A stretch of DNA of 38,978 nt from an uncultured Burkholderiales bacterium (GTDB lineage Bacteria > Pseudomonadota > Gammaproteobacteria > Burkholderiales > Burkholderiaceae_C): positions 1 through 38,978 of the forward strand of contig CAJBOO010000067.1 in assembly GCA_903956845.1 (NCBI GenBank), given 5' to 3'. A model generated the notes under the pieces. The model was not told the DNA's origin and did not search any database. It saw nothing but the letters and a program-made list of their open reading frames with translations. Position 1 is the stretch's first letter. Each line of letters starts with the position of its first letter. The translations under genes and the position numbers were made by a program. Positions 18,864 through 33,955 of this stretch are shown in pieces.

Positions 18864-18867
<4 letters not shown>

Positions 18868-19694
18868 AAAACGCTTCATCCCGCATGCCCAGTTTGTTCA
18901 TTCCCCATGGTGGGGGACCGTGTTTTTTCATGGACTGGAACCCCATCGATGCTTGGGACCAGATGGCGGATTTTTTGAGATCAGTCTCCAGCACCTTGCC
19001 ACGCCAACCCAAGGCCATCGTGATGGTGTCTGCCCACTGGCTGGGCCCAAAAGTGATGGTGACCAGCGCAGCCCATCCTGAGTTGATTTACGACTACCAC
19101 GGCTTCCCACCGCACACCTACGAACTCACCTATCCCGCGCCCGGAGCGCCTGCGTTGGCCGACCACATCGTTGCCTTGCTTCAAGCAGCCCACATCGACA
19201 GTGCCACTGACCCCACTCGTGGTTTTGACCACGGCATGTTCATTCCTTTGAAGTTGATGTTTCCACAGGCGGACATTCCGGTGGTGCAGGTGTCATTGCT
19301 GAGTTCACTGGACCCCGCTCAGCATGTGGCCATGGGCCAAGCCTTGGAGTCTTTGCGTGACCAAGACACCTTGATCGTCGGCAGTGGCATGAGTTTTCAC
19401 AACATGCGTGCCTACGGTAATCCCCAATATGGTCCGGTATCAGACGCCTTTGATGCATGGTTGACCGAGGCTGTCCAGGCCAATCCTTCAGTGCGCAACC
19501 AACAGTTGACCCACTGGACTCAAGCCCCGCACGCCAGAGACTGTCATCCACCCCGGGCAGAAGAGCATCTGTTGCCCTTGATGGTGGCAGCGGGTGCGGG
19601 TGGACAGTCACTGGGCCGCAAAGTGTTTTCAGACAGGGTCATGGAAACCACCTTGTCGGCTTTCGCATTTCAGGAAGTTGCGTCGCATGCCTAA
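18864..19694 (+). CDS. DODA-type extradiol dioxygenase family protein (YgiD-like)
   Basis: A 276-residue class III extradiol ring-cleavage dioxygenase-like protein. Candidate metal ligands are His15 (IPHGGGP), His58 (SAHWLGP), His179 (SFHNMR) and His235 (EEHLLPLM), the pattern seen in YgiD/4,5-DOPA dioxygenases. The substrate could be a catecholic compound; this is not determined by sequence. The ATG at 18864 lies inside the glmS stop (ATGA), so it is read with the glmU-glmS operon. An alternative in-frame ATG is at 18885. It is the last gene before a 53-base gap that opens the acyl-CoA catabolic run. Confidence 0.88.
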
Positions 19695-19747: not shown

Positions 19748-20923
19748 ATGAGCTTGTTTGATTTGCCGCCATTGCCCCACTGCTTCTCGCCCGAGCACGA
19801 ACAGTTTCGCGCCACCCTCAGAGGGTTCGTTGCCTGCGAAATCTCGCCTTTTGTGAACGAATGGGACGAGGCAGAAACCTTTCCCCTGTCTCTTTACCAA
19901 AAGGCCGCTGCCTTGGGCATCACCGGCATCGGCTACGCAGAGGAATGGGGTGGCACACCCACCGATGTGTTTTACAAAATCATCTTGGCTGAGGAATTTG
20001 CACGTTGCGGCAGTGGTGGTGTGCAAGCGTCCCTGAATTCACACACGATTGCCTTGCCCCCGATCGCCGCAGTGGGTTCATACGAACTCAAGCAACGGGT
20101 ATTGCCACCCGTGCTGAGCGGCGACAAGGTGGCGGCATTGGCGATCACTGAGCCCGGTGGTGGCTCGGATGTCGCGTCACTGCAAACCACCGCCGTACTG
20201 GACGGTGACCACTACGTGGTCAACGGCGAAAAAACCTTCATCACCAGTGGCATGCGCGCCCACTTCATCACGACAGCCGTGCGCACCGACCCTGGCAGCA
20301 AAGGCGCCAATGGCATTTCCTTGTTGGTGATAGATGGCGACACCCCAGGCCTGACACGCAGCCCTTTGAAAAAAATGGGTTGGTGGTGTTCCGACACCGC
20401 GCACCTGCACTTTGCAAACTGCCGTGTGCCCGCGAGGTATTTGGTGGGGGAAGAACACCACGGGTTCAAATACATCATGGCGAATTTCAATGCCGAGCGT
20501 TTGAGCATGGCTGCGCTTGCGTATGGCTATGCACAGGTGTGTTTCGAAGAGGCACTCGACTGGGCTCGCCAGCGTCAGACCTTTGGACAAGCACTGTCTG
20601 AGCGGCAAGTGGTGCGCCACAAATTGATGGACATGCACATGCGCATCGTTGCCGCCCGCAGCACGGTGCATGAACTTGCCTACCGCATCGAGCACAGCCT
20701 GGGTGACCCAGCCGCGTTGGTGGCAAGCATCGCCATGGCCAAGGTCTTGGCCACGCAAGCCATGCAGTTTTGTGCCGACCAATCGCTGCAAATTTTGGGT
20801 GGCATGGGGTACATGCGCGGCACACGCAGCGAACGCATCTACCGCGAGGTCAAGGTGATGATGATCGGCGGTGGCTCGGAAGAAATCATGAAAGACCTGG
20901 CCGCCAAGCAGTTGGGCATTTGA
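19748..20923 (+). CDS. Acyl-CoA dehydrogenase, isovaleryl-CoA-type active site
   Basis: A 391-residue acyl-CoA dehydrogenase. The FAD/acyl-binding segment is LAITEPGGGSDVASLQTT (about 131-148) and the C-terminus has QILGGMGYMRG. The loop position that carries catalytic Glu376 in medium-chain enzymes reads MMIGGGSEEIM, that is Gly. A glutamate is found instead at Glu250 in NAERL, the helix-G site used by isovaleryl-CoA dehydrogenase. This suggests a branched or bulky acyl-CoA substrate, but alignment was by eye. The ATG at 19748 gives the standard length; upstream in-frame codons overlap the dioxygenase gene. It opens the putative catabolic operon. Confidence 0.9.
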   Translation: MSLFDLPPLPHCFSPEHEQFRATLRGFVACEISPFVNEWDEAETFPLSLYQKAAALGITGIGYAEEWGGTPTDVFYKIILAEEFARCGSGGVQASLNSHTIALPPIAAVGSYELKQRVLPPVLSGDKVAALAITEPGGGSDVASLQTTAVLDGDHYVVNGEKTFITSGMRAHFITTAVRTDPGSKGANGISLLVIDGDTPGLTRSPLKKMGWWCSDTAHLHFANCRVPARYLVGEEHHGFKYIMANFNAERLSMAALAYGYAQVCFEEALDWARQRQTFGQALSERQVVRHKLMDMHMRIVAARSTVHELAYRIEHSLGDPAALVASIAMAKVLATQAMQFCADQSLQILGGMGYMRGTRSERIYREVKVMMIGGGSEEIMKDLAAKQLGI

Positions 20924-20936
20924 AGCAAGGAAACCC

Positions 20937-21728
20937 ATGCAACGCATTTGCCAAGACCTGCTCGACGAGTACCAAGCCCTGGCGGCTTTGTGCGACACCC
21001 TCACGTCCGCGCAATGGCGGCAACCCACGCATTTCCATGGCTGGAGCGCCTGGGACGAAATCGCCCACCTGTGCTACTTTGATGAAACCGGTTTGCAGTC
21101 GACCACCGATCCCCACGCCTTCAACGAAGCTGCTTTGCCCTTGGCCAAACGTTTGTACGCTGGCGATCAAATCAGTGCCATTGCGCGGGAACGCTATGCC
21201 CATTTGGATGGCCCTGCATTGCTGGCGCATTGGCGAGGCCTGCACACCGCTTTGGTTCAAGCGCTGTCCCATTGCGATCCGAAGGACCGTTTGCCTTGGT
21301 ATGGCCCACCCATGGGAGCTCGCTCGTTTGCGTCGGCACGGTTGATGGAAACTTGGGCACACGGGCAAGACGTGTGGGACTTGGTCAAGCGTGAGCGTCC
21401 CCGCACCTCTCGCTTGAAGCACATCGCACACTTGGGGGTGACCACCTTCAAGTGGACGTTTGTGAATCGCCAGTTACCGGTACCCGATGTGTTGCCCTGC
21501 GTCACACTCATTGCACCCGATGGTGAAAGCTGGGTTTGGAACGAAACTTCGAACACCCATGTGGTGCAGGGAAGTGCCCATGACTTTTGTTTACTCGTCA
21601 CGCAACGCAGGCACTTGCATGACACCGGCTTGCAATACCAAGGTGAGGGTGTGCGCGAATGGCTGTTGATGGCGCAGTGTTTCGCGGGTCCGCCCGCGGA
21701 TGGCCCCATGGCAGGCATCAGGGTGTGA
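20937..21728 (+). CDS. TIGR03084 family DinB-like metal-binding protein
   Basis: A 263-residue protein matching the TIGR03084 group, related to mycothiol-dependent maleylpyruvate isomerase-like (DinB fold) proteins. Candidate metal ligands are His44 (EIAHLCYFDE), Glu138 and His142 (METWAHGQDVWD). Burkholderiales do not make mycothiol, so another thiol or a non-enzymatic role must be considered. The family often sits beside acyl-CoA dehydrogenases, as here: it follows the first dehydrogenase by 13 bases with AGGAAA before its ATG. Its stop is overlapped by the GTG start of the DUF2156 gene (GTGA). The function is unknown. Confidence 0.85.
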   Translation: MQRICQDLLDEYQALAALCDTLTSAQWRQPTHFHGWSAWDEIAHLCYFDETGLQSTTDPHAFNEAALPLAKRLYAGDQISAIARERYAHLDGPALLAHWRGLHTALVQALSHCDPKDRLPWYGPPMGARSFASARLMETWAHGQDVWDLVKRERPRTSRLKHIAHLGVTTFKWTFVNRQLPVPDVLPCVTLIAPDGESWVWNETSNTHVVQGSAHDFCLLVTQRRHLHDTGLQYQGEGVREWLLMAQCFAGPPADGPMAGIRV

Positions 21729-22627
21729 CAGTGGGTGAACCGCTGTCCTGGCACCACCAGGCCGAGATCACACAGGCCTTGGCGGGTTTCAAGCGTGGTG
21801 AGGGGCCACACACCTTGTCGGATCTCAGCTTCGCCAATGTGTATCTGTTTCGCCAAGCGCACCAATACCGCTACCTGGGTGGTGCATGGCCTTGTCTGCA
21901 AGGCGTGGCCTACGACGGCCAGCGAACGGTGCTGCCGCTGTTTGATGTGGCCCAGGCACCGCGCCCAGTGTTGCAAGCCCTTCAAGGCGAGGCAGGGGCG
22001 GTTTTTTTTCCGGTAGCCGAATCGCAGTTGAGGGGCCTATCGGCTGCGCAATGCCAATGGCATGCCTCGCGTGACGACGCTGACTATGTCTACCCAGCCG
22101 ACCAATTCAGGCAATACGCTGGCAGTGGGCTGCACAGCAAGCGCAATTTGGTGAGGCAATTGCTTGATGCCGGCGAGGTTCGTGCGACACCCTACAGCGT
22201 GGACCTGGCCACTGAGGCACAACGGGTGTTGCACGATTGGATGCGCGTCAAAGGCAAGCCTGCGGGTGATGCAGATGAACTCCCTTGTTTGGAGGCCTTG
22301 CAACACGCCGACCGATTGGGTTTGCAGGGGTATCTCTACCATGTGCAAAACCAGGTGGCGGGCTTTGTGTTGGCTGAAAGCCTGGCACCCGGTGTCTGGG
22401 TGATGCGTTTTGCCAAAGGCATGGACCATTTCAAGGGCATTTACCAATACATGTTCCAGCATGTGTGTTTGGCCACACCCACGTTGCAATGGCTCAATTT
22501 CGAGCAGGACCTGGGTTTGCCCAACCTGCGCCAAACCAAGTTGTCTTACCAACCCGCCTTGCTGCTGCCCAAATACAGGCTGCGGCTTAGCCACTTGGCG
22601 CAAGACAGCATGTCGCAGCCGGCGTAG
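21725..22627 (+). CDS. DUF2156 domain protein (MprF-like GNAT fold)
   Basis: A roughly 300-residue protein with the DUF2156 pattern: an N-terminal segment HTLSDLSFANVYLFR and a C-terminal half with FAKGMDHFKGIYQYMFQ and LNFEQDLGLPNLRQTKLSY. DUF2156 is related to the phosphatidylglycerol lysyltransferase domain of MprF and to tandem GNAT folds, so an acyl or aminoacyl transfer reaction is possible. There are no membrane helices, unlike MprF. GTG 21725 overlaps the previous stop as GTGA and is chosen for translational coupling; GTG 21731 is an alternative. Its place inside an acyl-CoA operon is unusual and unexplained. Confidence 0.82.
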   Translation: MTVGEPLSWHHQAEITQALAGFKRGEGPHTLSDLSFANVYLFRQAHQYRYLGGAWPCLQGVAYDGQRTVLPLFDVAQAPRPVLQALQGEAGAVFFPVAESQLRGLSAAQCQWHASRDDADYVYPADQFRQYAGSGLHSKRNLVRQLLDAGEVRATPYSVDLATEAQRVLHDWMRVKGKPAGDADELPCLEALQHADRLGLQGYLYHVQNQVAGFVLAESLAPGVWVMRFAKGMDHFKGIYQYMFQHVCLATPTLQWLNFEQDLGLPNLRQTKLSYQPALLLPKYRLRLSHLAQDSMSQPA

Positions 22628-22653: not shown

Positions 22654-24270
22654 ATGGCCCAACTCGAATCCCTCCTTTCTGTCAGCAGTGACACTTTCCA
22701 AGCCAACCGCCAAGGCATGTTGGCCTTGCTCGAGCAGGTGCGAGCCTTCGAGCAGCGCACCGTTGAAAAGTCCACTGCATCCAAGCCCCGGTTTGACAAA
22801 CGCCAACAGTTGTTGCCTCGCGAGCGTCTGTCCTTGTTGCTTGACCCAGGCACGCCATTCCTCGAGTTGTCTACCCTGGCGGGCTTGGGCCTGGACCACA
22901 AAGACCTGGCCAAGAGCGTGCCAGGGGGCGGCGTGATCGCCGGCATCGGCGTGGTCAGCGGTGTGCGTTGCATGGTCAATGTCTCGGACTCAGGCATCGA
23001 TGCGGGCGCTTTGCAACCCATGGGTTTGGACAAGCAACTGCGCATCCAAGACATCGCCTTGGAAAACAAATTGCCTTATGTGCAATTGGTGGAAAGTGCA
23101 GGCGCCAACCTGATGACCTACCGGGTGGAAGACTTTGTGCGCGGTGGCAGTTTGTTTCGCAACATCGCGCGTTTGTCGGGCGCGGGTCTGCCAGTGGTCA
23201 CGGTCACGCATGGCTCGTCCACCGCGGGGGGTGCTTACCAAACCGGTTTGTCAGACTACATCATCATGGTGCGAGACCGTTCACGCGCATTTTTGGCGGG
23301 CCCACCCTTGTTAAAGGCAGCCACTGGCGAAGTCGCTACCGAAGAGGAGCTGGGCGGCGCGGTGATGCACACCAGCATTTCAGGTTTGGGAGACTACCTG
23401 GCCGAGGACGACCGCGATGCCATTCGCTTGGCTCGCGAGGTCATGGCGCACATCGAATGGGACCGCATCACACAAGACCCCAGCCGCCCCTTCAAAGCGC
23501 CGCGCTTTGACGCGGAAGAACTGCTGGGCATCATGCCCATGGACCACAAGCGACCCGTGGACATGAAAGAGGTGATTGCCCGCCTTGCCGACGACTCGGC
23601 ATTTTTGGAATTTGGGGCCAACTACGGCAGCGCCACGGTGTGCGGCCACATCACGCTCGAGGGTTGGCCGCTGGGCATCGTCACCAACAACGGGCCGATC
23701 GACATGGCCGGCGCGAACAAGGCCACGCATTTCATCCAAGCCTGTTGCCAAAGCCGCACACCCATCCTTTACCTGAACAACACCACCGGCTTCATGGTGG
23801 GCAAGGCCTATGAGGAAGGCGGCATCATCAAGCACGGCTCGAAGATGATCCAAGCCGTCACCCATGCCACCGTGCCGCAAATCACCCTGTACTGTGGCGC
23901 GTCGTTTGGCGCGGGCAACTACGGCATGTGCGGTCGCGGCTTTCATCCACGCTTTTGCTTCAGTTGGCCCAACGCCAAAACCGCTGTCATGGGCGGTGAG
24001 CAAGCCGCCAAAACCATGGCCATCGTCACGGAAGCCGCGATGAAACGCAAAGGCGAGGTAGACCAAGCCGCTCTCGATGACTTGCAGCAGCGCATCATCG
24101 AACGCTTTGACAGCCAGATGAGTGTGTTTGTCACCAGCGCCCACGTGCTGGACGACGGCGTCATCGATCCGCGAGACACCCGCAGCGTGTTGGCCGAGGT
24201 GTTGGCAGTCTGCCGACAAGCCGATGCGCGTCAACCCCAACCCATGCAATTCTCAGTCGCCCGCCCATGA
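22654..24270 (+). CDS. Acyl-CoA carboxylase beta subunit (AtuC/LiuB/MCC-beta-like)
   Basis: A 538-residue carboxyltransferase subunit with both crotonase-like lobes. The N-lobe oxyanion region HGSSTAGGAYQTG is near residue 190 and the C-lobe region CGASFGAGNYGMCGRG is near 416-430. Length and N-terminus (RERLSLLLDPGTPFLELS) match the 3-methylcrotonyl-CoA/geranyl-CoA carboxylase family rather than PccB, which is shorter and has a different C-terminus. With the alpha subunit two genes on, it would transfer carboxybiotin CO2 to the gamma carbon of a beta-methyl enoyl-CoA. Whether the substrate is methylcrotonyl-, geranyl- or another acyl-CoA is not resolved. Its stop overlaps the next start (ATGA). 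Confidence 0.92.
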   Translation: MAQLESLLSVSSDTFQANRQGMLALLEQVRAFEQRTVEKSTASKPRFDKRQQLLPRERLSLLLDPGTPFLELSTLAGLGLDHKDLAKSVPGGGVIAGIGVVSGVRCMVNVSDSGIDAGALQPMGLDKQLRIQDIALENKLPYVQLVESAGANLMTYRVEDFVRGGSLFRNIARLSGAGLPVVTVTHGSSTAGGAYQTGLSDYIIMVRDRSRAFLAGPPLLKAATGEVATEEELGGAVMHTSISGLGDYLAEDDRDAIRLAREVMAHIEWDRITQDPSRPFKAPRFDAEELLGIMPMDHKRPVDMKEVIARLADDSAFLEFGANYGSATVCGHITLEGWPLGIVTNNGPIDMAGANKATHFIQACCQSRTPILYLNNTTGFMVGKAYEEGGIIKHGSKMIQAVTHATVPQITLYCGASFGAGNYGMCGRGFHPRFCFSWPNAKTAVMGGEQAAKTMAIVTEAAMKRKGEVDQAALDDLQQRIIERFDSQMSVFVTSAHVLDDGVIDPRDTRSVLAEVLAVCRQADARQPQPMQFSVARP

Positions 24271-25415
24271 AACTCAGCCACGAACACCACGAATTGCAGC
24301 GCTCAGTCAAACGCTGGATAGACGATCACATCAACCCCCATGTGGACGAGTGGGAGGCCGCAGGGCGGTTTCCCGCGCACCAGGTGTTCAAGCAAATGGG
24401 CGACATGGGGTGGCTGGGCTTGTGCAAGCCAGAGGAAAACGGTGGCGCAGGATTGGATTACTCCTTTGGCGCGGTGCTGGCCGAAGCCTTGGGGCACATC
24501 GACTGCGGTGGCGTTCCGATGGCCATCGGCGTGCAAACCGACATGGCCACGCCTGCCTTGGCCGAGCATGGCAGTGCTGCCTTGCGTGCTGAATTCCTGA
24601 CGCCAGCCATTCGTGGTGAGTTGGTGGCTTGCTTGGGAGTGTCCGAGGTCGGTGGGGGCTCGGACGTGGCCTCGATCAAAACCACGGCAAGAAAAGACGG
24701 GGATGACTACGTGATCAATGGCGGCAAGATGTGGACCACCAATGGCACACAGGCCGACTTTTGCTGTTTGCTGGCCAACACCTCCGAGGGTGCGCCACAC
24801 CGCAACAAGTCACTGATCATCGTGCCGATGAACAGCCCTGGCGTCACGGCTTCCAAGCCCTTGAAAAAAATGGGCATGCATTCCTCCGACACGGCCCAAC
24901 TGTATTTCGACAACGTGCGGGTGCCCCAGCGACACCGCATCGGAGAAGAGGGCATGGGTTTCATCTACCAAATGGAGCAGTTCCAGATCGAGCGTTTGTG
25001 GGGTGCGATGAACAACGTCGGCATGGCGCAACGTGCGATCGACACCACCATTGCCTATACCCGCGAACGCCAGGTGTTTGGCCGATCGATCTTGGACAAC
25101 CAAAGCGTGCACTTCAGATTGGCCGAGTTCCAAGCCGAGCTCGAATGCCTGAGAGCCGTGTGTTGGCAAGCCATCGAACACATCACCGACGGTGTCGACG
25201 CCACCTACTTGGCCACGGTGGCCAAGCTCAAGGCCGGTCGACTCATGCGCACCATTGCCGATGGTTGTTTGCAGTTCTGGGGTGGCATGGGCTATGTCGA
25301 TGAAAGCCCCATTTCTCGCATTTACCGCGATGGCCGTTTGACTTCGATTGGTGGTGGCGCTGACGAAGTGATGTTGCAAATCTTGTGTAAAAGCATGGGA
25401 ATCTTGCCGCGATGA
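24267..25415 (+). CDS. Acyl-CoA dehydrogenase, AtuD/IVD-like
   Basis: A 382-residue acyl-CoA dehydrogenase between the two carboxylase genes, the position of citronellyl-CoA dehydrogenase (AtuD) in atu clusters. It has the FAD segment GVSEVGGGSDVASIKTT and a C-terminus with FWGGMGYVDESPISRIYRDGR. The catalytic-loop position is Gly (IGGGADEVM), while Glu242 in QIERL matches the isovaleryl-CoA dehydrogenase helix-G base. It should create the 2,3-double bond of a beta-methyl acyl-CoA, feeding the carboxylase. Start and stop both overlap neighbours as ATGA, indicating strong translational coupling. Confidence 0.9.
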   Translation: MKLSHEHHELQRSVKRWIDDHINPHVDEWEAAGRFPAHQVFKQMGDMGWLGLCKPEENGGAGLDYSFGAVLAEALGHIDCGGVPMAIGVQTDMATPALAEHGSAALRAEFLTPAIRGELVACLGVSEVGGGSDVASIKTTARKDGDDYVINGGKMWTTNGTQADFCCLLANTSEGAPHRNKSLIIVPMNSPGVTASKPLKKMGMHSSDTAQLYFDNVRVPQRHRIGEEGMGFIYQMEQFQIERLWGAMNNVGMAQRAIDTTIAYTRERQVFGRSILDNQSVHFRLAEFQAELECLRAVCWQAIEHITDGVDATYLATVAKLKAGRLMRTIADGCLQFWGGMGYVDESPISRIYRDGRLTSIGGGADEVMLQILCKSMGILPR

Positions 25416-27436
25416 CCGCCACGCCCTTCAGCAAAGTCCTGGTTGCCAATCGAGGCGAAATCGCTTTGCGGGTGATGCGCACAGCCAAAGCCATGGGTTA
25501 CCAAACCGTCGCGGTCTATTCACGCGTCGATGCAAACGCCCGCCATGTGGCCCAAGCCGATCAAGCTGTGTGCATTGGTGAGGCATTGCCGTCTCAGTCG
25601 TACTTGAACATGCCCGCCATCATCTCTGCTGCGCGCTTGAGCGGCGCGGACGCGGTGCACCCTGGCTATGGTTTTTTGGCTGAGAACGCTGACTTCGCAC
25701 AAGCCTGCGCAGACGCTGGCCTGGTGTTCATCGGTCCCTCGGCCCAAGCCATTCGCAGCATGGGTGACAAGGCAGGCGCCAAGCGCTTGATGCTTGCAGC
25801 AGGCGTGCCATGCATCCCTGGATACCAAGGCGTGGACCAAAGCCCCACCCGTTTGGCCCAAGAAGCCCAGGCCATGGGCTACCCCGTGATGATCAAAGCC
25901 ACCGCAGGTGGGGGTGGGCGTGGCATGCGCTTGGTCGACAGCGCAGAGACCTTTGCAGACCTGCTGCAAAGCGCGCAATCGGAAGCCTTGAACGCGTTTG
26001 GTGATGCGACTGTCATCTTGGAGAAAGCGCTGGTGCAAGCGCGGCACATTGAAATCCAAATCATGGCCGATCGGTATGGCCATGTTGTTCATCTGGGCGA
26101 GCGTGATTGCTCGGTGCAACGTCGACACCAAAAACTGATTGAAGAAGCGCCTTCGCCTGCGGTGGATGCCGAGTTGCGTCAACGCATGGGCGAGACCGCC
26201 GTCGCGGCAGCCAAGGCCATCGGCTACGAGGGCGCAGGCACCCTGGAATTTTTGCTTGATGCCCAAGGCCAGCATTTCTTCATGGAGATGAACACCCGCT
26301 TGCAAGTCGAGCATCCCGTGACCGAGGCGATCACAGGTTTGGACTTGGTAGCGATGCAGTTGCGCATCGCTGCGGGTGAGACGCTGGGACTGCAGCAACA
26401 CGATGTGCAGTTCAAAGGTCATGCGATCGAGGTGCGCTTGTGCGCCGAAGACGCCTTGCAACAGTTCATGCCGCAAAGCGGCCAGATGTGGCGCTGGGAG
26501 ATGCCCGAGTGCTTACGGGTGGAACACGCTTTGCACAGTGGTGCAGAGATCACGCCTTTTTACGACTCGATGATCGCCAAGCTGATCAGCGTGGGGCAAG
26601 ACCGCGAGGATGCACGACGACAACTTCAGGTGGGCCTGCAAGATGCAGTGGCTTTGGGTGTCACGACCAACCAGGCTTTGTTGGCGCAGTGTTTGGCGCA
26701 TCCGGTGTTCGTGGCTGGTCAGGCCACCACGGATTTCGTTGCCACGCACGAAGCAGCGTTGACGCATTCAGACCCTGCATCCCTTCAACAGCTGTTGGCG
26801 TTGGCGTCAGCGGTGTTGCTCGCCCATGCCCCAGGGGCGGCACCCGTGCCCAGTCCTCGACGGGTCTTGAACCGCTTGCCCCATGTGTTGCAACTCTCGC
26901 TCGGTGGCGTCACCCAATCGGTCACCGTGCTGCAAAGTGCTGCGCATGTGTACCAAGTGCACGCAGCGCAAGGCGGGCCTTGCCAAATTGAACTGCATGA
27001 CTTGCACTCGCAGTCACCAAGCACTGACCGCGATACCCAAGGCGTTCAACAGGGGCGAGTCCGTTTCAGCTGCAACCAGCTGATGCAACACGCATCATTT
27101 GTGCAACAAGGGGCGAAGTTGTGGCTGCATTGGCAAGGGCAAAGTTGGGCGGTGCATGACCGGACCCGTGCGGCCTCAGCCAAGCCAGACGAGGGCAGCG
27201 GGGATGGCAAGTTGCGAGCGGCCATGAATGGTCGGGTGGTGGCTGTCGCTGTCGCAGTGGGTGAGCGCGTGTTGCGTGGCCAAACATTGTTGACCTTGGA
27301 AGCCATGAAGATGGAGCATGTTCACACCGCCACAGCCAACGGGGTGGTCACATCACTCCACGTGACCGTTGGCGACCAAGTCGCTGCCAGCCGAGTGTTG
27401 GCAGAGATTGAACAGGACATACAGGAGAAGACATGA
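25412..27436 (+). CDS. Acyl-CoA carboxylase alpha subunit (biotin carboxylase + BCCP; AtuF/LiuD-like)
   Basis: A 674-residue biotin-dependent carboxylase subunit. It has a biotin carboxylase N-domain (FSKVLVANRGEIALRV at the start), an ATP-grasp domain with the glycine-rich loop KATAGGGGRGMR near 162-173, and FMEMNTRLQVEHPVTE near 291-306. A BT linker domain (about 450-600) and a C-terminal biotinyl domain follow, with the biotin-accepting Lys633 in EAMKMEH. The layout and length fit 3-methylcrotonyl-CoA or geranyl-CoA carboxylase alpha. It overlaps the preceding dehydrogenase and the following crotonase gene by ATGA. Together with the beta subunit it forms the carbon-fixing step of the pathway. 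Confidence 0.93.
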   Translation: MTATPFSKVLVANRGEIALRVMRTAKAMGYQTVAVYSRVDANARHVAQADQAVCIGEALPSQSYLNMPAIISAARLSGADAVHPGYGFLAENADFAQACADAGLVFIGPSAQAIRSMGDKAGAKRLMLAAGVPCIPGYQGVDQSPTRLAQEAQAMGYPVMIKATAGGGGRGMRLVDSAETFADLLQSAQSEALNAFGDATVILEKALVQARHIEIQIMADRYGHVVHLGERDCSVQRRHQKLIEEAPSPAVDAELRQRMGETAVAAAKAIGYEGAGTLEFLLDAQGQHFFMEMNTRLQVEHPVTEAITGLDLVAMQLRIAAGETLGLQQHDVQFKGHAIEVRLCAEDALQQFMPQSGQMWRWEMPECLRVEHALHSGAEITPFYDSMIAKLISVGQDREDARRQLQVGLQDAVALGVTTNQALLAQCLAHPVFVAGQATTDFVATHEAALTHSDPASLQQLLALASAVLLAHAPGAAPVPSPRRVLNRLPHVLQLSLGGVTQSVTVLQSAAHVYQVHAAQGGPCQIELHDLHSQSPSTDRDTQGVQQGRVRFSCNQLMQHASFVQQGAKLWLHWQGQSWAVHDRTRAASAKPDEGSGDGKLRAAMNGRVVAVAVAVGERVLRGQTLLTLEAMKMEHVHTATANGVVTSLHVTVGDQVAASRVLAEIEQDIQEKT

Positions 27437-28206
27437 GCGACGCGGTGAAGTGCGAGGTAAAAGGTGCGGCGTTTTGGATCACAGTCAACCGACCCGACAA
27501 GCGCAATGCGATCAATGCCGAAGTGGTGCAGGGGATACGACAGGGCTATGCCCAAGCGCATGCCAACCCGGCGATCCGTGTCATCGTGTTGACAGGAGCC
27601 GGCGACAAGGCCTTTTGCGCGGGGGGCGATTTGCAACCCGACAAAGGTTTTGTGTTTGATGTGTCTCAACCCAATGTGCCTTATGCCGACATGTTGCGCG
27701 AGGCGCGCCAAGCCACGCTGCCCAGCATTGCGCGGGTCAACGGGGTGTGCATGGCGGGCGGCATGGGTTTGTTGGGCATGACCGACATGGCTGTGTGCGC
27801 TGACCACGTGCAGTTTGGGTTGCCCGAGGTCAAGGTGGGTGTGTTCCCCATGCAGGTCTTGAGCGTGTTGCAAGGCTTGGTGCCCGCCCGCAAACTGCAT
27901 GAATGGGCCTTGAGCGGTGAGCCGTTTTCAGCCCAAGAGGCCTTGAGCGCTGGCTTGGTCAACCATGTGGTGCCTGTCCATGAATTGGACCCCAAGACAC
28001 AGTGGTTGATTGACCGTTTGGTCGACAAATCACCCACGGCCATTCGGCGTGGCAAATATGCCATGCGCGCCATCGCCGACATGGGATTCGAGCAAGCCCT
28101 GGCTTACACCGAAAGCCAAATTGCCCTGCTTGCCCAAACAGAAGACGCCAAAGAAGGCCTGGCGGCATTCAACGACAAGCGGCAACCGGTCTGGACTGGG
28201 CGCTAA
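27433..28206 (+). CDS. Enoyl-CoA hydratase family protein (AtuE/LiuC-like)
   Basis: A 257-residue crotonase placed directly after the carboxylase alpha gene, as the hydratase is in atu and liu clusters. Oxyanion-hole segments are FCAGGDL (61-67) and CMAGGMG (106-112). The residue aligned to Glu144 of rat enoyl-CoA hydratase appears to be Gly112, while the Glu164 equivalent is kept as Glu132 in LPEVKVG. It may hydrate a glutaconyl-CoA-type product with a modified acid-base pair or act as an isomerase. The stop codon lies in a small GGCGC-TAA-GCGCC palindrome (28199-28211), too weak for a confident terminator. Confidence 0.88.
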   Translation: MSDAVKCEVKGAAFWITVNRPDKRNAINAEVVQGIRQGYAQAHANPAIRVIVLTGAGDKAFCAGGDLQPDKGFVFDVSQPNVPYADMLREARQATLPSIARVNGVCMAGGMGLLGMTDMAVCADHVQFGLPEVKVGVFPMQVLSVLQGLVPARKLHEWALSGEPFSAQEALSAGLVNHVVPVHELDPKTQWLIDRLVDKSPTAIRRGKYAMRAIADMGFEQALAYTESQIALLAQTEDAKEGLAAFNDKRQPVWTGR

Positions 28207-28286
28207 GCGCCAAGGGAAAACCCCGAGCCCATCAGGCTTCAAGTGCGCCTACCTTAGCCTGTTGAACCCCAGTGGGGGTCCGTGTG

Positions 28287-28299
28287 GACAGTCGGAGAC
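28287..28299 (+). promoter_or_regulatory. Candidate AraC-type operator half-site upstream of araC gene
   Basis: The 13 bases at 28287-28299 match 10 of 13 with the motif at 31010-31022 in the atuA/dctP intergenic region; the shared core is GNCAGTC followed by GA and AC. Its presence in both promoter regions of the locus suggests a binding site for the local AraC regulator. By-eye comparison only. Confidence 0.3.
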
Positions 28300-28346
28300 C
28301 TTGGGTGCGCAAATTCGAAACGGAGACAACCTCGCCACAATCTGTG

Positions 28347-29114
28347 ATGTGGATCACCCCTGCGCGGGTTTTCTATCACGGACTTTTGGGCGAGCCATCC
28401 TTGCGCAGCATGGGTTCGGTCACCGTGTATGTGGCGGTCAGTGGGCACATTCGCATCCAAATGGACGGTGGCGAGTGGCAGACCACCGAGCTTGCGGTGG
28501 TGCCGCCGTATGTGCCACACCAGGTGTGTGCCGATTCGCGCTTCATCACCTTGATGCAATTCGAAGCCGAGAGCGTGCGCTTGCCTGCGTTGCCCGCTTG
28601 GCTGCAAGCGCGTGGCGCGGTGGATGCGCCCGAACAGGTCCAGGCCTTGCGCGAGAAGCAATTGCAACTGAGCCAATGGGCGGCTTGTGTGGATTTAGAC
28701 ACCCTCGACTTCGACCAGACCTTGTTGGGCAGCGCTTTGCCGTCCAAGCCGATGGATGCGCGCATCGCCATGGTGTTGCGTCATCTCCAACAAGACCCAG
28801 CGGCAAGCCTGTTGGCGCAAGACTACGCCGCCATGGCACACCTGTCGTTCTCGCGTTTTTTGCACCTGTTCAAGCAAGAAGTGGGTGCACCTTTTCGCAG
28901 TTTCCGTACCTGGAAACGTGCGCGCAACGTGTTGCACCATGTGGTGAGACAAGACGCCAATTTGCTGGATGTGGCCTTGGACGCAGGTTATCCCGACTCG
29001 ACCCACTTCAGCCATTCGATCCGGCAGATTTATGGCTTGAAACCCAGCGACATGTTTGCCGGTTCACGGCGACTGCGTGTGCACGCCCAAACCGCATCCT
29101 TGACCGGTGCCTGA
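28347..29114 (+). CDS. AraC family transcriptional regulator
   Basis: A regulator of about 255 residues with an N-terminal cupin-like ligand domain (SVTVYVAVSGHIRI, then LAVVPPYVPHQV) and a C-terminal double helix-turn-helix from about residue 155 on. The second helix-turn-helix segment is DVALDAGYPDSTHFSHSIRQ, typical of AraC/XylS. It likely controls the surrounding acyl-CoA and TRAP genes in response to the imported compound; this is inference from position. ATG 28347 gives a compact N-terminus; GTG codons at 28344 and 28272 are also in frame. The upstream 140 bases hold the putative operator and small GC hairpins. Confidence 0.87.
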   Translation: MWITPARVFYHGLLGEPSLRSMGSVTVYVAVSGHIRIQMDGGEWQTTELAVVPPYVPHQVCADSRFITLMQFEAESVRLPALPAWLQARGAVDAPEQVQALREKQLQLSQWAACVDLDTLDFDQTLLGSALPSKPMDARIAMVLRHLQQDPAASLLAQDYAAMAHLSFSRFLHLFKQEVGAPFRSFRTWKRARNVLHHVVRQDANLLDVALDAGYPDSTHFSHSIRQIYGLKPSDMFAGSRRLRVHAQTASLTGA

Positions 29115-29127
29115 GGCCTGCCTGGGG

Positions 29128-30999
29128 TCAGTGGGTCGATGTTTGCGCTTGCGCGGCAACCGACGGTGGCACCAGCAGTTCGAGGTCCAACAGCATTTGT
29201 GCCATTCCCTTGCCCAAGGGGTCTATGCGGCAAGAGGCTGGGCCGCCGCCGTCCAGTGCTTGGTGCAACATGAAGTTGATGGCTGAGATGCCTGGCAAAT
29301 AGAAACGCTCAACCTCCCCGTGCACCAAGTGTTGGACATAAGCTTGCACCACCTCGGGCGTGAGACGTGCCCATAACAAAGGCAGCCATTCTGGGCGGCG
29401 TGCCACCACACCTATGTTGGCGATGTCGCCCTTGTCGCCGCTGCGGGCCCACGCCAGTTGAACCAACTTGACGCTCACCTGGGGTTCAGGTTGTTCCAGC
29501 CAAGCGGCCACGGGCAGGGCTGGCAAAGCTTGGGCACTGCCATGGGTGAGTGCTGTGGGGACATCGTGGCGCTGGCCATGGAGATGGAAGCAGACCTGTA
29601 CCTGGTCCTTGTTGAGCAACACCGAGAAGGGTTTGATGAGCGGCGATGCAGTTGGTCGCCCAACGCCCGGACCGGTCGTGCCGGGTGACCAAGAGGTGCC
29701 CGAGGGAGCGATTTCACGGGCAAAGATGTCCAGCGCTTGGCGACTGGGGTGGCTGGCGGTGATGCGCACCATCACCTCGCGTGATGCGCGGGTTTGGGCA
29801 TGTTCGCCATACAAGGTCTCGGCACCGAACAAATCGATGCGGGTATCGGTGAAGTCGTCAAAGCCCGCTTGCGTCAGCAATGGGCGGCAGCGTTGCAACA
29901 CCGCTTCGCCGGTGCGTTGTGCTTTGGCTGCGGCGTCGATGCCAATGATGACCATGCTGCCGGTGCATCGGTAGCCTTGCAAGCTGGTGGCAGACACTTT
30001 GTAAAACGGCGTGGGTTCGCGTCCCCGTGCGCCCGACACCCGCACCGTCTCGGGGTCGAGTTGGCTGATGTGCACTTGTCGGAAATCACACACCACATCA
30101 GGCAACACATAGGCACTGGGGTCGCCAATTTCATACAGCAATTGCTCGGCCACTGCCGCACGCAATACCTTGCCGCCAGTGCCTGGAGGCTTGGTCAATT
30201 CAAAACTGCCATCCGCGTGGACGTGCACGATCGGGTAACCGATCGCGTGCCAATCGGGGATGTCTTGCCAGTCAGTGTGTAAGCCACCGGTGGCTTGGCA
30301 GCCGCACTCGATGATGTGCCCGGCCAAGCTGCCCCCCGCCAGTGGATCAAAGTCTTGTGCAGTCCAACCGAAGGCATGGATGAGCGGCCCCAGCGTGGTC
30401 GCGCTGTCCACGCATCGGCCCGTGATCACGATGTCTGCGCCTGCATCCAGTGCACGGGCAATCGCGAAGGCACCCAGGTAAGCATTGGCGCTCAAGACGT
30501 GCTCGGGCAGGGGTTCGCCACTGAACATGTCGGTGCAGCCTTGTGCTCGCAGTGAAGGCAACAGGGCAGCGACATCGTCGCCTTCCACCACGGCGATGCG
30601 TGGTTGCAAGCCCATGCCCGCGGCCAAGTCGTGCAGTGCCTTGGCGCAAGCTTGTGGGTGGATACCCCCCGCGTTGGCCACCACCTTGATGCCTTGGCGC
30701 ATCACCTCGGGCAGCACGGATCGCATGGCGATGTCGACAAAGTCGGTGGCGTATCCCATGTCGGCGTTTTTGCGGCGAGCAGCGGCCAAGATCGCCATGG
30801 TGGTTTCGGCCAGGTAATCAAACACCAGGTAGTCGATCTGCCCGGACGCCACCAACTGCGGCGCACCCACGGCACTGTCGCCCCAAAACCCTGAAGCGCC
30901 ACCCAGCCGAACCACTTTGTCTTGTGTCACACCTGCCCCCTGCCCATCGTTGCCAATCGTGAGCTTAAGCGCAATGGCACGTGCCTGACTTGTGTCCAT
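29128..30999 (-). CDS. AtuA-family (DUF1446) acyclic terpene utilization-like protein
   Basis: A 623-residue protein. The N-terminal DUF1446 domain (about 15-460) carries GGASGFWGDSAVGAPQLV, VVANAGGIHPQACAKAL and DIVITGRCVDSATTLGPL. The C-terminal AtuA-like ferredoxin-fold domain (about 515-605) carries LAWARSGDKGDIANIGV. AtuA is required for citronellol/geraniol use in Pseudomonas, but its reaction is not firmly established to my knowledge. The gene is divergent from the TRAP transporter and convergent with the AraC gene (13-base gap). With no HMG-CoA-lyase-type gene nearby, it is the main unassigned candidate for late steps. An inverted repeat (30996-31030) overlaps its start codon. Confidence 0.92.
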   Translation of the reverse strand: MDTSQARAIALKLTIGNDGQGAGVTQDKVVRLGGASGFWGDSAVGAPQLVASGQIDYLVFDYLAETTMAILAAARRKNADMGYATDFVDIAMRSVLPEVMRQGIKVVANAGGIHPQACAKALHDLAAGMGLQPRIAVVEGDDVAALLPSLRAQGCTDMFSGEPLPEHVLSANAYLGAFAIARALDAGADIVITGRCVDSATTLGPLIHAFGWTAQDFDPLAGGSLAGHIIECGCQATGGLHTDWQDIPDWHAIGYPIVHVHADGSFELTKPPGTGGKVLRAAVAEQLLYEIGDPSAYVLPDVVCDFRQVHISQLDPETVRVSGARGREPTPFYKVSATSLQGYRCTGSMVIIGIDAAAKAQRTGEAVLQRCRPLLTQAGFDDFTDTRIDLFGAETLYGEHAQTRASREVMVRITASHPSRQALDIFAREIAPSGTSWSPGTTGPGVGRPTASPLIKPFSVLLNKDQVQVCFHLHGQRHDVPTALTHGSAQALPALPVAAWLEQPEPQVSVKLVQLAWARSGDKGDIANIGVVARRPEWLPLLWARLTPEVVQAYVQHLVHGEVERFYLPGISAINFMLHQALDGGGPASCRIDPLGKGMAQMLLDLELLVPPSVAAQAQTSTH

Positions 31000-31115: not shown

Positions 31116-32138
31116 ATGACCCACACCTCCGATTCCCGCCGTCAATTGTTGAAAGCCGCCGCCGGTGCTGGCGCTTGGTCTGTGTTGCATCCGCATGCTT
31201 GGGCGCAAAACGCAGAATTCAAACTCAAGCTGGCCAACAATTTTCCAGCCACCCACCCGACCAATCTGCGGATGAAAGAAGCCGTGGACGCCATCCGCGC
31301 CGAATCCAAAGGTCGGGTCGACATCCAGCTCTTCCCCAACAACCAGCTCGGCGGCGACACCGACATGCTGTCGCAGGTGCGCTCGGGCGCGATCGACTTC
31401 TTCATGCTGTCTGGCTTGATCTTGCAAACCCTGGTGCCCGTGGCGGGCATCAACGGTTTGGCTTTTGCATTCAAGGACTACCAAACCGTGTGGGCCGCCA
31501 TGGACGGCGAACTGGGTGCGCATGTGCGCGGCGCGATCGCCAAAGTGAACCTGTTTGCCTTTGAGTCTTGTTTTGACAATGGCTTTCGCAACATCACCAG
31601 CTCCACCAAACCGATCCAAACGCCCGCCGATTTGCAAGGCTTCAAAATCCGTGTGCCGGTCAGCCCCTTGTGGACTTCGATGTTCAAAGCCTTGGGCGCC
31701 TCGCCGGCCTCGATCAACTTCAGTGAGGTCTATTCTTCCTTGCAAACCAAGATCGTCGAAGGCCAAGAAAACCCCTTGCCCCTGATCGAGTCAGCCAAAC
31801 TGTACGAAGTGCAAAAGTACTGCTCGATGACCTCGCACATGTGGGATGGCCAATGGGTCTTGGCCAACCAAAAGCGCTGGGGTGCGCTGCCCCCTGATCT
31901 GCAAGCCTTGGTGGCCAAGCATTTCAAAAAGGCCGCCCAGGTGCAGCGCGACGACATTCGCCGTTTGAACAATGTCCTTGAAGCGCAACTCAAGTCCAAG
32001 GGCATGGTGTTTAATTACCCAGACGCCAAGCCATTCAAAGAGGTGCTTGCCAAAGCCGGTTTCTACCAAGAATGGAAAACCAAATACGGTCCTGAAGCGA
32101 TGGGCAAGCTCGAGAAATACACCGGTCCATTGGCATGA
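31116..32138 (+). CDS. TRAP transporter solute-binding protein DctP
   Basis: A 340-residue periplasmic binding protein. The N-terminus has a twin-arginine type signal (SRRQLLKAA, residues 7-15) with cleavage near AWAQ. The mature part contains TRAP signatures FPNNQLGGDTDMLSQVRSG and DLQGFKIRVP; Arg179 in the latter corresponds to the arginine that usually salt-bridges a substrate carboxylate. The ligand is therefore probably an organic acid. The ATG at 31116 follows the divergent control region. The stop overlaps the permease start (ATGA). The binding protein and permease probably import the substrate of the adjacent acyl-CoA pathway. Confidence 0.93.
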   Translation: MTHTSDSRRQLLKAAAGAGAWSVLHPHAWAQNAEFKLKLANNFPATHPTNLRMKEAVDAIRAESKGRVDIQLFPNNQLGGDTDMLSQVRSGAIDFFMLSGLILQTLVPVAGINGLAFAFKDYQTVWAAMDGELGAHVRGAIAKVNLFAFESCFDNGFRNITSSTKPIQTPADLQGFKIRVPVSPLWTSMFKALGASPASINFSEVYSSLQTKIVEGQENPLPLIESAKLYEVQKYCSMTSHMWDGQWVLANQKRWGALPPDLQALVAKHFKKAAQVQRDDIRRLNNVLEAQLKSKGMVFNYPDAKPFKEVLAKAGFYQEWKTKYGPEAMGKLEKYTGPLA

Positions 32139-33955
32139 CCCTGATAGGGCCAGAGCGGGTATTGCGCGTGTTGGCCGAATGGCCTGCAGCATGCTTGGTC
32201 CTGGCAGAAATTGGCGTGCTGTCTGCTGGCGTGGTCAGCCGTTATGTGTTGCAGTCCCCACTCACCTGGTCTGACGAACTCGCCTCGGTGTTGTTCTTGT
32301 GGTTGGCCATGCTCGGCGCAGTGGTGGCCATGCAGCGCAATGAGCACATGCGCTTGACGGTGTTCGTGGCCAAGTTGTCGCCCCCCACACAGGTGGCTGT
32401 GAATACCTTGGTGGCTTGCCTGTCGGTGTTGTTCTGCGCGGTGCTGTGGTGGCCCGCTTTTGAACACATGAACGAGCAATGGGTCATCCTCACGCCTGCT
32501 TTGGAAATCCCGGATGCGCTGCGGGTGGCCGCGGTGGTGGTGGGTTTGTCTCTCATGCTGTTGCAATCCTTGCTCCAGCTGGTTCGCCAGGCTCGAGGTG
32601 CTCAGCTGCTGCTGTCCCTGGGCATCTTGGGGGTCTTGGGCGCAGCGCTCACGTTGGCCAGTCCTTGGTTGATGAACTGGGGACACCTCAATTTGTTGAT
32701 CTTCTTTGTCGCCCTGGTGGGCTTGTGTGTGGTCATCGGTTTGCCGATTGCTTTTGCTTTTGCCTTGAGCACGGTGGCGTATTTGCAGTTTTCCACCAGC
32801 ACACCGCTGACCATTGTGGTCAGTCGCATTGACGAGGGCATGTCCCACCTGATTTTGTTGTCCGTGCCGCTGTTTGTGTTTTTGGGTGCTTTCATCGCGG
32901 TAACTGGTTTGGCCAAGGCCATGGTGGATTTTTTGGCGACCCTGTTGGGTCACTTGCGTGGCGGTTTGCAATACGTGTTGCTGGCAGCCATGTACTTGGT
33001 CTCAGGCATTTCAGGCTCCAAGGCAGCCGACATGGCGGCCGTGGCCCCGGCGTTGTTTCCTGAAATGAAGCAACGGGGCGCACACCCAGGTCGCTTGGTG
33101 GCGCTGTTGGCGGCCTCTGGGGCAATGAGCGAAACCATCCCACCCAGCTTGGTGCTGATCACGATTGGCGCGGTCACCGGTGTGTCGATTTCCGCCTTGT
33201 TCGTCGGCGGTTTGGTGCCTGCGCTTGTTGGTTTGTTGGCTTTGTGTGCGGTGGTTTATTGGCAGGCCAAGACAGACAACACCGTCTTGGTCGAGCGTGC
33301 GCCGATGTCGCAAGTCTTGAAATGCTTTTGGCTGGCCCTGCCCGCCTTGGCCCTGCCTTTCGTCATCCGATCAGCCGTGGTCGAAGGCGTGGCCACCGCC
33401 ACCGAGGTGTCGACGATTGGCATTTTGTATACCTTGGTGATCGGTGTGCTTTTCTACCGCCAATTGGATTGGCGTCGCCTCTTCCCCATGTTGGTGGAAA
33501 CCGCTTCTTTGTCGGGCGCGATTTTGCTGATCATTGGTTGCGCCACCGCCATGGCCTGGGCCTTGACCCAATCAGGCTTTTCACGCGACCTGGTTGCTTT
33601 GATGACGCAAGTACCCGGGGGAGCCACGGGTTTCATGCTGGTGTCCTTGGTGGTGTTTGTGTTGCTGGGCAGCATGCTCGAAGGCATTCCCGCCATCGTG
33701 TTGTTTGGGCCATTGCTGTTTCCGGTTGCCCGCGCTTTGGGTATCCATGAGGTGCATTACGCCATGGTGGTGGTGTTTGCGATGGGCTTGGGGCTGTTTG
33801 CACCACCAGTGGGCGTGGGCTTTTACGCTGCTTGCGCGATTGGCAAGGTCGACCCTGACCAGGCCTTGAACCCCATTTGGCCTTACCTGGGCGCTTTGCT
33901 GCTGGCGCTGTTGGTGATTGCCTTTGTGCCTTGGGTGTCCATCGGCTTTTTGTGA
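32135..33955 (+). CDS. TRAP transporter fused permease DctQM
   Basis: A 606-residue membrane protein joining the small DctQ subunit (about residues 1-165, four helices; SDELASVLFLWLAMLGAVVAM region) to the large DctM subunit (about 175-606, about twelve helices). DctM motifs include VSGISGSKAADMAAVAPALFPEMK and ASGAMSETIPPSLVLI. Together with DctP it makes a complete sodium-coupled TRAP importer. The last 73 bases overlap the oppositely oriented NAD-dependent epimerase/dehydratase gene. Confidence 0.92.
   Translation: MTLIGPERVLRVLAEWPAACLVLAEIGVLSAGVVSRYVLQSPLTWSDELASVLFLWLAMLGAVVAMQRNEHMRLTVFVAKLSPPTQVAVNTLVACLSVLFCAVLWWPAFEHMNEQWVILTPALEIPDALRVAAVVVGLSLMLLQSLLQLVRQARGAQLLLSLGILGVLGAALTLASPWLMNWGHLNLLIFFVALVGLCVVIGLPIAFAFALSTVAYLQFSTSTPLTIVVSRIDEGMSHLILLSVPLFVFLGAFIAVTGLAKAMVDFLATLLGHLRGGLQYVLLAAMYLVSGISGSKAADMAAVAPALFPEMKQRGAHPGRLVALLAASGAMSETIPPSLVLITIGAVTGVSISALFVGGLVPALVGLLALCAVVYWQAKTDNTVLVERAPMSQVLKCFWLALPALALPFVIRSAVVEGVATATEVSTIGILYTLVIGVLFYRQLDWRRLFPMLVETASLSGAILLIIGCATAMAWALTQSGFSRDLVALMTQVPGGATGFMLVSLVVFVLLGSMLEGIPAIVLFGPLLFPVARALGIHEVHYAMVVVFAMGLGLFAPPVGVGFYAACAIGKVDPDQALNPIWPYLGALLLALLVIAFVPWVSIGFL

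Follow-up and report, generated by a model that had tools for sequence, protein, structure and literature searches.

Two translationally coupled genes in the window analyzed here, the 38,978-nucleotide contig CAJBOO010000067.1 (assembly GCA_903956845.1) of an uncultured Burkholderiales bacterium, encode a protein of the TIGR03084 family and a stand-alone protein of the DUF2156 family. They form a conserved, unexplained module within an operon of an already known kind, the atu type, for which the sequences predict γ-carboxylation of a larger branched 2-enoyl-CoA. The best explanation, to which a probability of about 0.32 is given, is that in this operon the TIGR03084 protein interconverts the E and Z forms of the branched enoyl-CoA with the help of a metal and a thiol; its partner is, judging from the modelled fold, probably an aminoacyl-tRNA-dependent transferase of the MprF/FemX type. 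A preliminary description based on the nucleotide sequence had named both families, given their coordinates and placed the genes between the first acyl-CoA dehydrogenase (ACAD1) and the carboxylase, and all of this was borne out by the profile searches and the gene layout.

The TIGR03084 protein (263 amino acids) scores 281.8 bits against the NCBIfam model, which has a curated cut-off of 247.95, over profile positions 2–253 of 253, and also passes the Pfam model MDMPI_N (85.7 versus 24.2 bits). No function is assigned to the family in NCBIfam, and a literature search under that name gave no paper. When an AlphaFold2 model of the protein [predicted local distance difference test (pLDDT) 97.2] was searched with Foldseek, the sole matches below an E value of 0.001 were 2nsf and 2nsg, which are structures of mycothiol-dependent maleylpyruvate isomerase (MDMPI); VIA-align superposed the model on them with Z scores of 15.8–15.9 over 215 residues, at 3.8–3.9 Å and 13% identity. 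These entries are the only full-length structural match and share the two-domain fold, consisting of a DinB four-helix bundle and an SCP2-like domain, and the C-terminal part (residues 157–252) also resembles SCP2 structures (Z about 6–7). A sequence search of the PDB with TIGR03084 profiles gave no match to MDMPI at E ≤ 10. Ten residues, including H44, E138 and H142, are invariant across 87 TIGR03084 relatives, an alignment that omits L019, L023, L025 and L079 (off the gene-caller list, a copy or of a length outside 240–305 amino acids). The zinc site of MDMPI is given as His52/Glu144/His148 in the available part of its description (PMC4351081). In a comparison of spacing only, the ExxxH spacing of the invariant His/Glu/His set and its 8-residue offset relative to this site fit the structural range. 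In contrast to MDMPI, the TIGR03084 protein lies in a different operon, and its host, the genome of which encodes a glutathione synthetase, is not known to make mycothiol, although mycothiol genes were not searched for.

The partner protein (300 amino acids) matches Pfam LPG_synthase_C (PF09924), which we take to be the former DUF2156, at 104.5 versus 27.5 bits over profile positions 8–297 of 298, whereas no NCBIfam model matched it at E ≤ 0.001. Its AlphaFold2 model (pLDDT 92.1) has a tandem-GNAT fold of the MprF/FemX type. The best structural match is 2hqy, the function of which is not known (Z 29.7), followed by MprF domains (Z about 15–16), the tRNA-dependent proteins Sba18 and Sbb17 (Z about 14) and FemX (Z 12–14). 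Unlike MprF, the protein is soluble and lacks the N-terminal membrane flippase/anchor, and it is the soluble domain alone that matches end to end. The pyrophosphate loop by which GNAT enzymes bind CoA, for which we assumed the motif [QR]xxGx[GA], is absent from the window protein and present in two of 16 relatives (the alignment omits L015, which has a split gene, as well as L023 and L130). This weakens the case for a plain acyl-CoA-dependent GNAT enzyme, and the modelled fold makes a role in aminoacyl transfer likely.

The coupling that had been proposed is visible in the sequence as a GTGA junction, in which the TGA stop codon of the TIGR03084 gene (21726–21728) overlaps the GTG start codon of the DUF2156 gene (21725–21727). 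Among 200 genomes of the family, TIGR03084 was found in 11 (ten over the cut-off) and a close DUF2156 relative in seven, and in all seven the latter lies next to TIGR03084. A contig scan with TIGR03084 gave 585 confirmed matches, of which the 80 best were examined as loci; 11 of these contain the DUF2156 gene, and an order-level sample added one further pair locus (L130). After one copy was dropped (L023, a copy of L016), 18 distinct pair loci were obtained, across Burkholderiales and one gammaproteobacterium. In every one of them the DUF2156 gene is co-directional with and just downstream of TIGR03084; a 4-nucleotide overlap is possible in 12 and a 1-nucleotide overlap occurs in one. The pair lies directly upstream of the carboxyltransferase gene in most loci, with ACAD1, an AraC regulator or a hydratase on the opposite flank; L036 has intervening genes, and in L033 a TonB receptor comes after the pair. 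The comparison of loci suggested in the preliminary description thus indicates a real conserved module. Chance insertion was rejected on the grounds that DUF2156 accompanies TIGR03084 in seven of seven family genomes and that the pair clusters on the carboxylase tree described below.

Several single loci were also noted. At L025 (7723–9242) the pair lies on a 15 kb contig without a carboxylase, beside a monomeric isocitrate dehydrogenase gene, and may therefore be able to stand alone. At L015 (2303–2842 and 2826–3137, minus strand; genome G104) two reading frames share the DUF2156 gene, which points either to decay of this copy or to a fault in the assembly. Absence of DUF2156 is soft in the order-level sample, for which a limited number of candidates was scored in each genome. 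In genomes G434 and G405, from the same genus as the pair-bearing G463, TIGR03084 was found at 39–42% identity and no pair was detected. Four order-level DUF2156 matches (E from 4e-28 to 7e-20) were not accompanied by a TIGR03084 match, the neighbourhood of one of them (L138) having been viewed, and a fifth match, in G304, was weak and partial (E = 6e-4).

The operon is assigned to the atu type because its carboxylase carries the glycine of the geranyl type and because AtuA is encoded beside it. Against the PDB, the window carboxyltransferase scored 624 bits with 5ikl (geranyl-CoA carboxylase β subunit) and 475 bits with 3u9r (methylcrotonyl-CoA carboxylase). A PDB sequence search with AtuA was uninformative. 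According to the selectivity rule in the available part of Jurado et al. (2015; PMC4673880), glycine marks the geranyl type and phenylalanine the methylcrotonyl type. The window protein has Gly164 at this position, as do all 16 pair-bearing and all 20 pair-less rows of the alignment; among carboxylase rows with TIGR03084 only, glycine occurs in nine of 25. A second acyl-CoA carboxylase of the same genome (45% identity), encoded together with a dehydrogenase on a 4.66 kb contig (G000:C254, L146) that ends inside the biotin subunit, has phenylalanine there, as read by eye in the translation. A leucine/isovalerate operon was rejected on the basis of the geranyl-type glycine in the window and the separate phenylalanine-type carboxylase elsewhere. 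The branched acyl-CoA substrate that had been suggested from the sequence therefore gains support from the type of the β subunit. Acyl-CoA ligase, short-chain dehydrogenase/reductase, alcohol dehydrogenase or aldehyde dehydrogenase genes lie near other loci of the set, as would suit the breakdown of terpenoid alcohols and acids. The window resembles the Pseudomonas atuA–H operon in that genes for AtuA, both subunits of a geranyl-CoA-type carboxylase, an acyl-CoA dehydrogenase and an enoyl-CoA hydratase cluster together, AtuA being on the opposite strand in the window. It differs in having two acyl-CoA dehydrogenases, a nearby AraC regulator and transporter of the tripartite ATP-independent periplasmic (TRAP) type, and the TIGR03084–DUF2156 pair.

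The history of the pair was traced on a tree of 61 carboxyltransferases. All 16 pair-bearing rows fall inside one clade of 22 (support 98/94), within which six pair-less rows are scattered, and the pair label requires six changes compared with 14.3 in shuffles, none of 500 shuffles being as low. This pattern is most simply explained by a single gain followed by about five losses; the tree was rooted at its midpoint, and the direction of change hinges on this root. Within the family, the pair was found in seven of the 12 genomes (including that of the window) that have a carboxyltransferase at least 75% identical to that of the window.

TIGR03084 also occurs in related operons outside the pair. 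A carboxylase subunit or AtuA was found near it in 38 of the best 80 loci, counting any tblastn match with E ≤ 1e-5 to AtuA or to either carboxylase subunit within flanks of at most 10 kb, shortened by contig ends, so that some of these matches may be unrelated biotin carboxylases. These 38 loci span Actinomycetota, Thermodesulfobacteriota and Pseudomonadota and differ in gene order; they make up 19 of the 29 loci with at least 45% identity to the window TIGR03084 and 19 of the 51 below. On the annotated plasmids pLP414 of Rhodococcus opacus and pMYCCH.01 of Mycolicibacterium chubuense, an enoyl-CoA hydratase gene is followed by TIGR03084 and then by AtuA, and carboxylase subunits, dehydrogenase and acyl-CoA ligase are likewise present. 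In contrast to the window, TIGR03084 here overlaps AtuA by 4 nucleotides, and no DUF2156 is annotated in the stretches viewed. Plasmids of Rhodococcus sp. WAY2 and Streptomyces NBC_00846 carry TIGR03084 with no AtuA or carboxylase in the stretch viewed, and the neighbours in further loci are unrelated, such as a DNA-binding protein, PhoH, glutamyl-tRNA synthetase and transporters. Since DUF2156 is confined to the beta/gammaproteobacterial version in this sample, it cannot be a general requirement of TIGR03084. As a separate observation, L028, a locus in a metagenome-assembled genome of Desulfovibrionaceae, shows the order AraC–ACAD1–TIGR03084 at 62–71% identity to the window, and the TIGR03084 tree groups it with Variovorax-type rows; the contig is possibly mis-binned.

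On the preferred reading, a Burkholderiales lineage of the atu-type operon would have acquired the pair in a single event, with several later losses. The operon would γ-carboxylate a 3-alkyl-branched 2-enoyl-CoA and then hydrate and cleave the product, and the TIGR03084 protein would be a metal-dependent, thiol-assisted E/Z isomerase resembling maleylpyruvate isomerase. In the latter enzyme a thiol adds to a conjugated cis double bond, allowing rotation. Two conjugated compounds, 3-alkyl-2-enoyl-CoA and 3-alkylglutaconyl-CoA, would occur on the pathway of the window. By analogy, the metal site of TIGR03084 would activate a thiol for addition to the conjugated double bond, either in the 3-alkyl-2-enoyl-CoA or in the glutaconyl-type product; rotation about this bond and departure of the thiol would then give the isomer accepted by the carboxylase or the hydratase. 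The DUF2156 protein, as an aminoacyl-tRNA-dependent transferase of the MprF/FemX type, would serve TIGR03084, and we guess that it makes or modifies the small-molecule thiol. Geraniol has the trans configuration. The literature of the pathway, in the excerpts available, describes citronellyl-CoA as yielding cis-geranyl-CoA and names no enzyme that interconverts the E and Z esters of geranyl-CoA, and the trans isomer of geranyl-CoA is considered unlikely to fit the carboxylase (Jurado et al., PMC4673880, in part). An E/Z isomerase is thus chemically wanted, because the carboxylase reportedly fits only the cis form, which citronellyl-CoA is described as supplying, whereas geraniol is trans; the modelled fold of TIGR03084 and its invariant His/Glu/His set would suit such an enzyme. 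A DinB-type isomerase, if true, would fill this gap between the trans acid from geraniol and the cis-only carboxylase; it would be the first role for the TIGR03084 family and would make stand-alone DUF2156 proteins testable in a defined pathway. The fuller proposal that the pair constitutes this stereochemical step, with TIGR03084 feeding the cis-only carboxylase and DUF2156 building an aminoacyl or thiol cofactor from aminoacyl-tRNA, seems distinctly unlikely as a whole; if true, tRNA-dependent chemistry would serve a catabolic operon.

A number of points weigh against the isomerase proposal. No TIGR03084 protein has a shown activity, and similarity of a modelled fold does not show function; moreover, DinB-only proteins reach Z scores of about 15 over ∼150 residues, within 1 Z of the isomerase. 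Occurrence across lineages that use mycothiol, glutathione or other thiols fits poorly with a single dedicated thiol. The partner is missing from 69 of the best 80 scanned TIGR03084 loci, and the published descriptions of Pseudomonas atu clusters, as far as their available parts go, name neither gene of the pair. Among 289 genomes sampled across the phylum, eight contain TIGR03084 and 38 contain AtuA; the two occur together in three, about one being expected by chance, and lie within about 10 kb of each other in two. The phylum-wide tie to AtuA is thus weak (three of eight genomes), an AtuA-dedicated role everywhere was rejected on this count, and with co-occurrence in three genomes only, TIGR03084 is not an obligate partner of AtuA. 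The pair is also dispensable, as judged from sequence comparison: the remaining five of the 12 family genomes with a carboxyltransferase at least 75% identical have no pair, and two loci (L110 and L114) retain the operon without it, with gaps between the ACAD1 and carboxyltransferase matches of 69 and 15 bases, followed by the second acyl-CoA dehydrogenase (ACAD2) and the biotin subunit, and with AtuA nearby. The preliminary description had held that absence from otherwise syntenic loci would indicate chance insertion; such absence does exist, but because of the carboxylase tree it is read as repeated loss after one gain. A role that involves a thiol, as that description had also allowed for, may apply to TIGR03084, the one full-length structural match of which is a mycothiol-dependent isomerase. 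The earlier interpretation as a whole is partly supported.

Other roles for the pair were weighed against the isomerase, the main rivals being a thiol S-transferase and a contribution to the lyase step. TIGR03084 might be a DinB-superfamily thiol S-transferase that traps reactive enoyl-CoA or aldehydes, for detoxification or release of CoA, with DUF2156 processing the conjugate. Terpene aldehydes and enoyl-CoAs are indeed electrophiles, and a PIG-L (LmbE-like) protein, which we take to belong to the superfamily of mycothiol S-conjugate amidase, is encoded near TIGR03084 in six actinobacterial loci (L053, L056, L070, L071, L089 and L099). However, recurrent placement in pathway operons and the overlap with AtuA on two plasmids resemble a pathway step, and the full-length fold matches an isomerase, which leaves this proposal doubtful. 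PhoH and the DNA-binding protein are also found nearby in some of the six PIG-L loci. TIGR03084 and AtuA might also act jointly at the lyase step, in which acetate is released from 3-hydroxy-3-alkylglutaryl-CoA, with TIGR03084 as a metal-dependent lyase or accessory protein in genomes that lack 3-hydroxy-3-methylglutaryl-CoA (HMG-CoA) lyase (LiuE). Such a role would agree with the gene order and overlap on the same two plasmids; furthermore, the assembly of the window's genome yielded no HMG-CoA lyase, the only HMGL-like genes found there being a 2-isopropylmalate synthase and a 4-hydroxy-2-oxovalerate aldolase. Nevertheless, liuE may be hidden in an assembly gap, because the contig that carries the leucine-type carboxylase breaks off inside the operon, and AtuA occurs without TIGR03084 in 35 of 38 AtuA genomes. 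To our knowledge, DinB proteins are not known as lyases of the acetate-releasing kind, and we consider such a role unlikely.

The pair might instead be a passenger that was co-transferred and tolerated without a role in the pathway of the operon, as the repeated losses on the carboxylase tree and the isolated pair at L025 would allow. This is quite improbable given that the site residues are conserved, that the same spot just upstream of the carboxyltransferase is occupied in most pair loci and that TIGR03084 has been placed independently in related operons of other phyla. The preliminary description had suggested that the pair acts on a branched acid in amide, peptide or aminoacyl linkage, a conjugate that the two proteins would then release or form. 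This finds an echo in the nearest folds of the DUF2156 model, which are those of aminoacyl transfer (MprF, FemX, Sbb17/Sba18). However, no amidase or peptidase was recognized among the 20 neighbouring proteins named using Pfam, so that such a substrate is unsupported, and TIGR03084 occurs in operons of this kind in other phyla without DUF2156; this reading is very improbable.

Table 1. Genes of the operon and its surroundings in the window.
Feature	Position	Strand	Basis and remarks
ACAD1 (acyl-CoA dehydrogenase 1)	19748–20923	+	Pfam Acyl-CoA_dh domains; immediately 5' of the pair
TIGR03084 protein, DinB/MDMPI_N and C-terminal SCP2-like domain	20937–21728	+	NCBIfam; Pfam MDMPI_N
LPG_synthase_C (DUF2156) stand-alone protein	21725–22627	+	Pfam PF09924; GTG start
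Carboxyltransferase (β) subunit, geranyl-CoA-carboxylase type, Gly164	22654–24270	+	Best PDB match 5ikl
ACAD2 (acyl-CoA dehydrogenase 2)	24267–25415	+	Pfam
Biotin carboxylase/biotin carrier (α) subunit	25412–27436	+	Pfam Biotin_carb, CPSase_L_D2, Biotin_lipoyl
Enoyl-CoA hydratase, AtuE-like position	27433–28206	+	Pfam ECH_1
AraC-type regulator, start uncertain	28272–29114	+	Pfam HTH_18
AtuA family protein, proposed acyclic-terpene pathway lyase	29128–30999	-	Pfam AtuA PF07287 (474.7 bits) and AtuA_ferredoxin

Upstream of the genes in Table 1, a DODA-type/LigB extradiol dioxygenase gene (18864–19694), which overlaps glmS by 4 nucleotides, leads into ACAD1. On the other side, beside AtuA (31116–33955), the open reading frames were read as a TRAP-type solute-binding protein and a fused small/large permease, a possible importer of the acid substrate.
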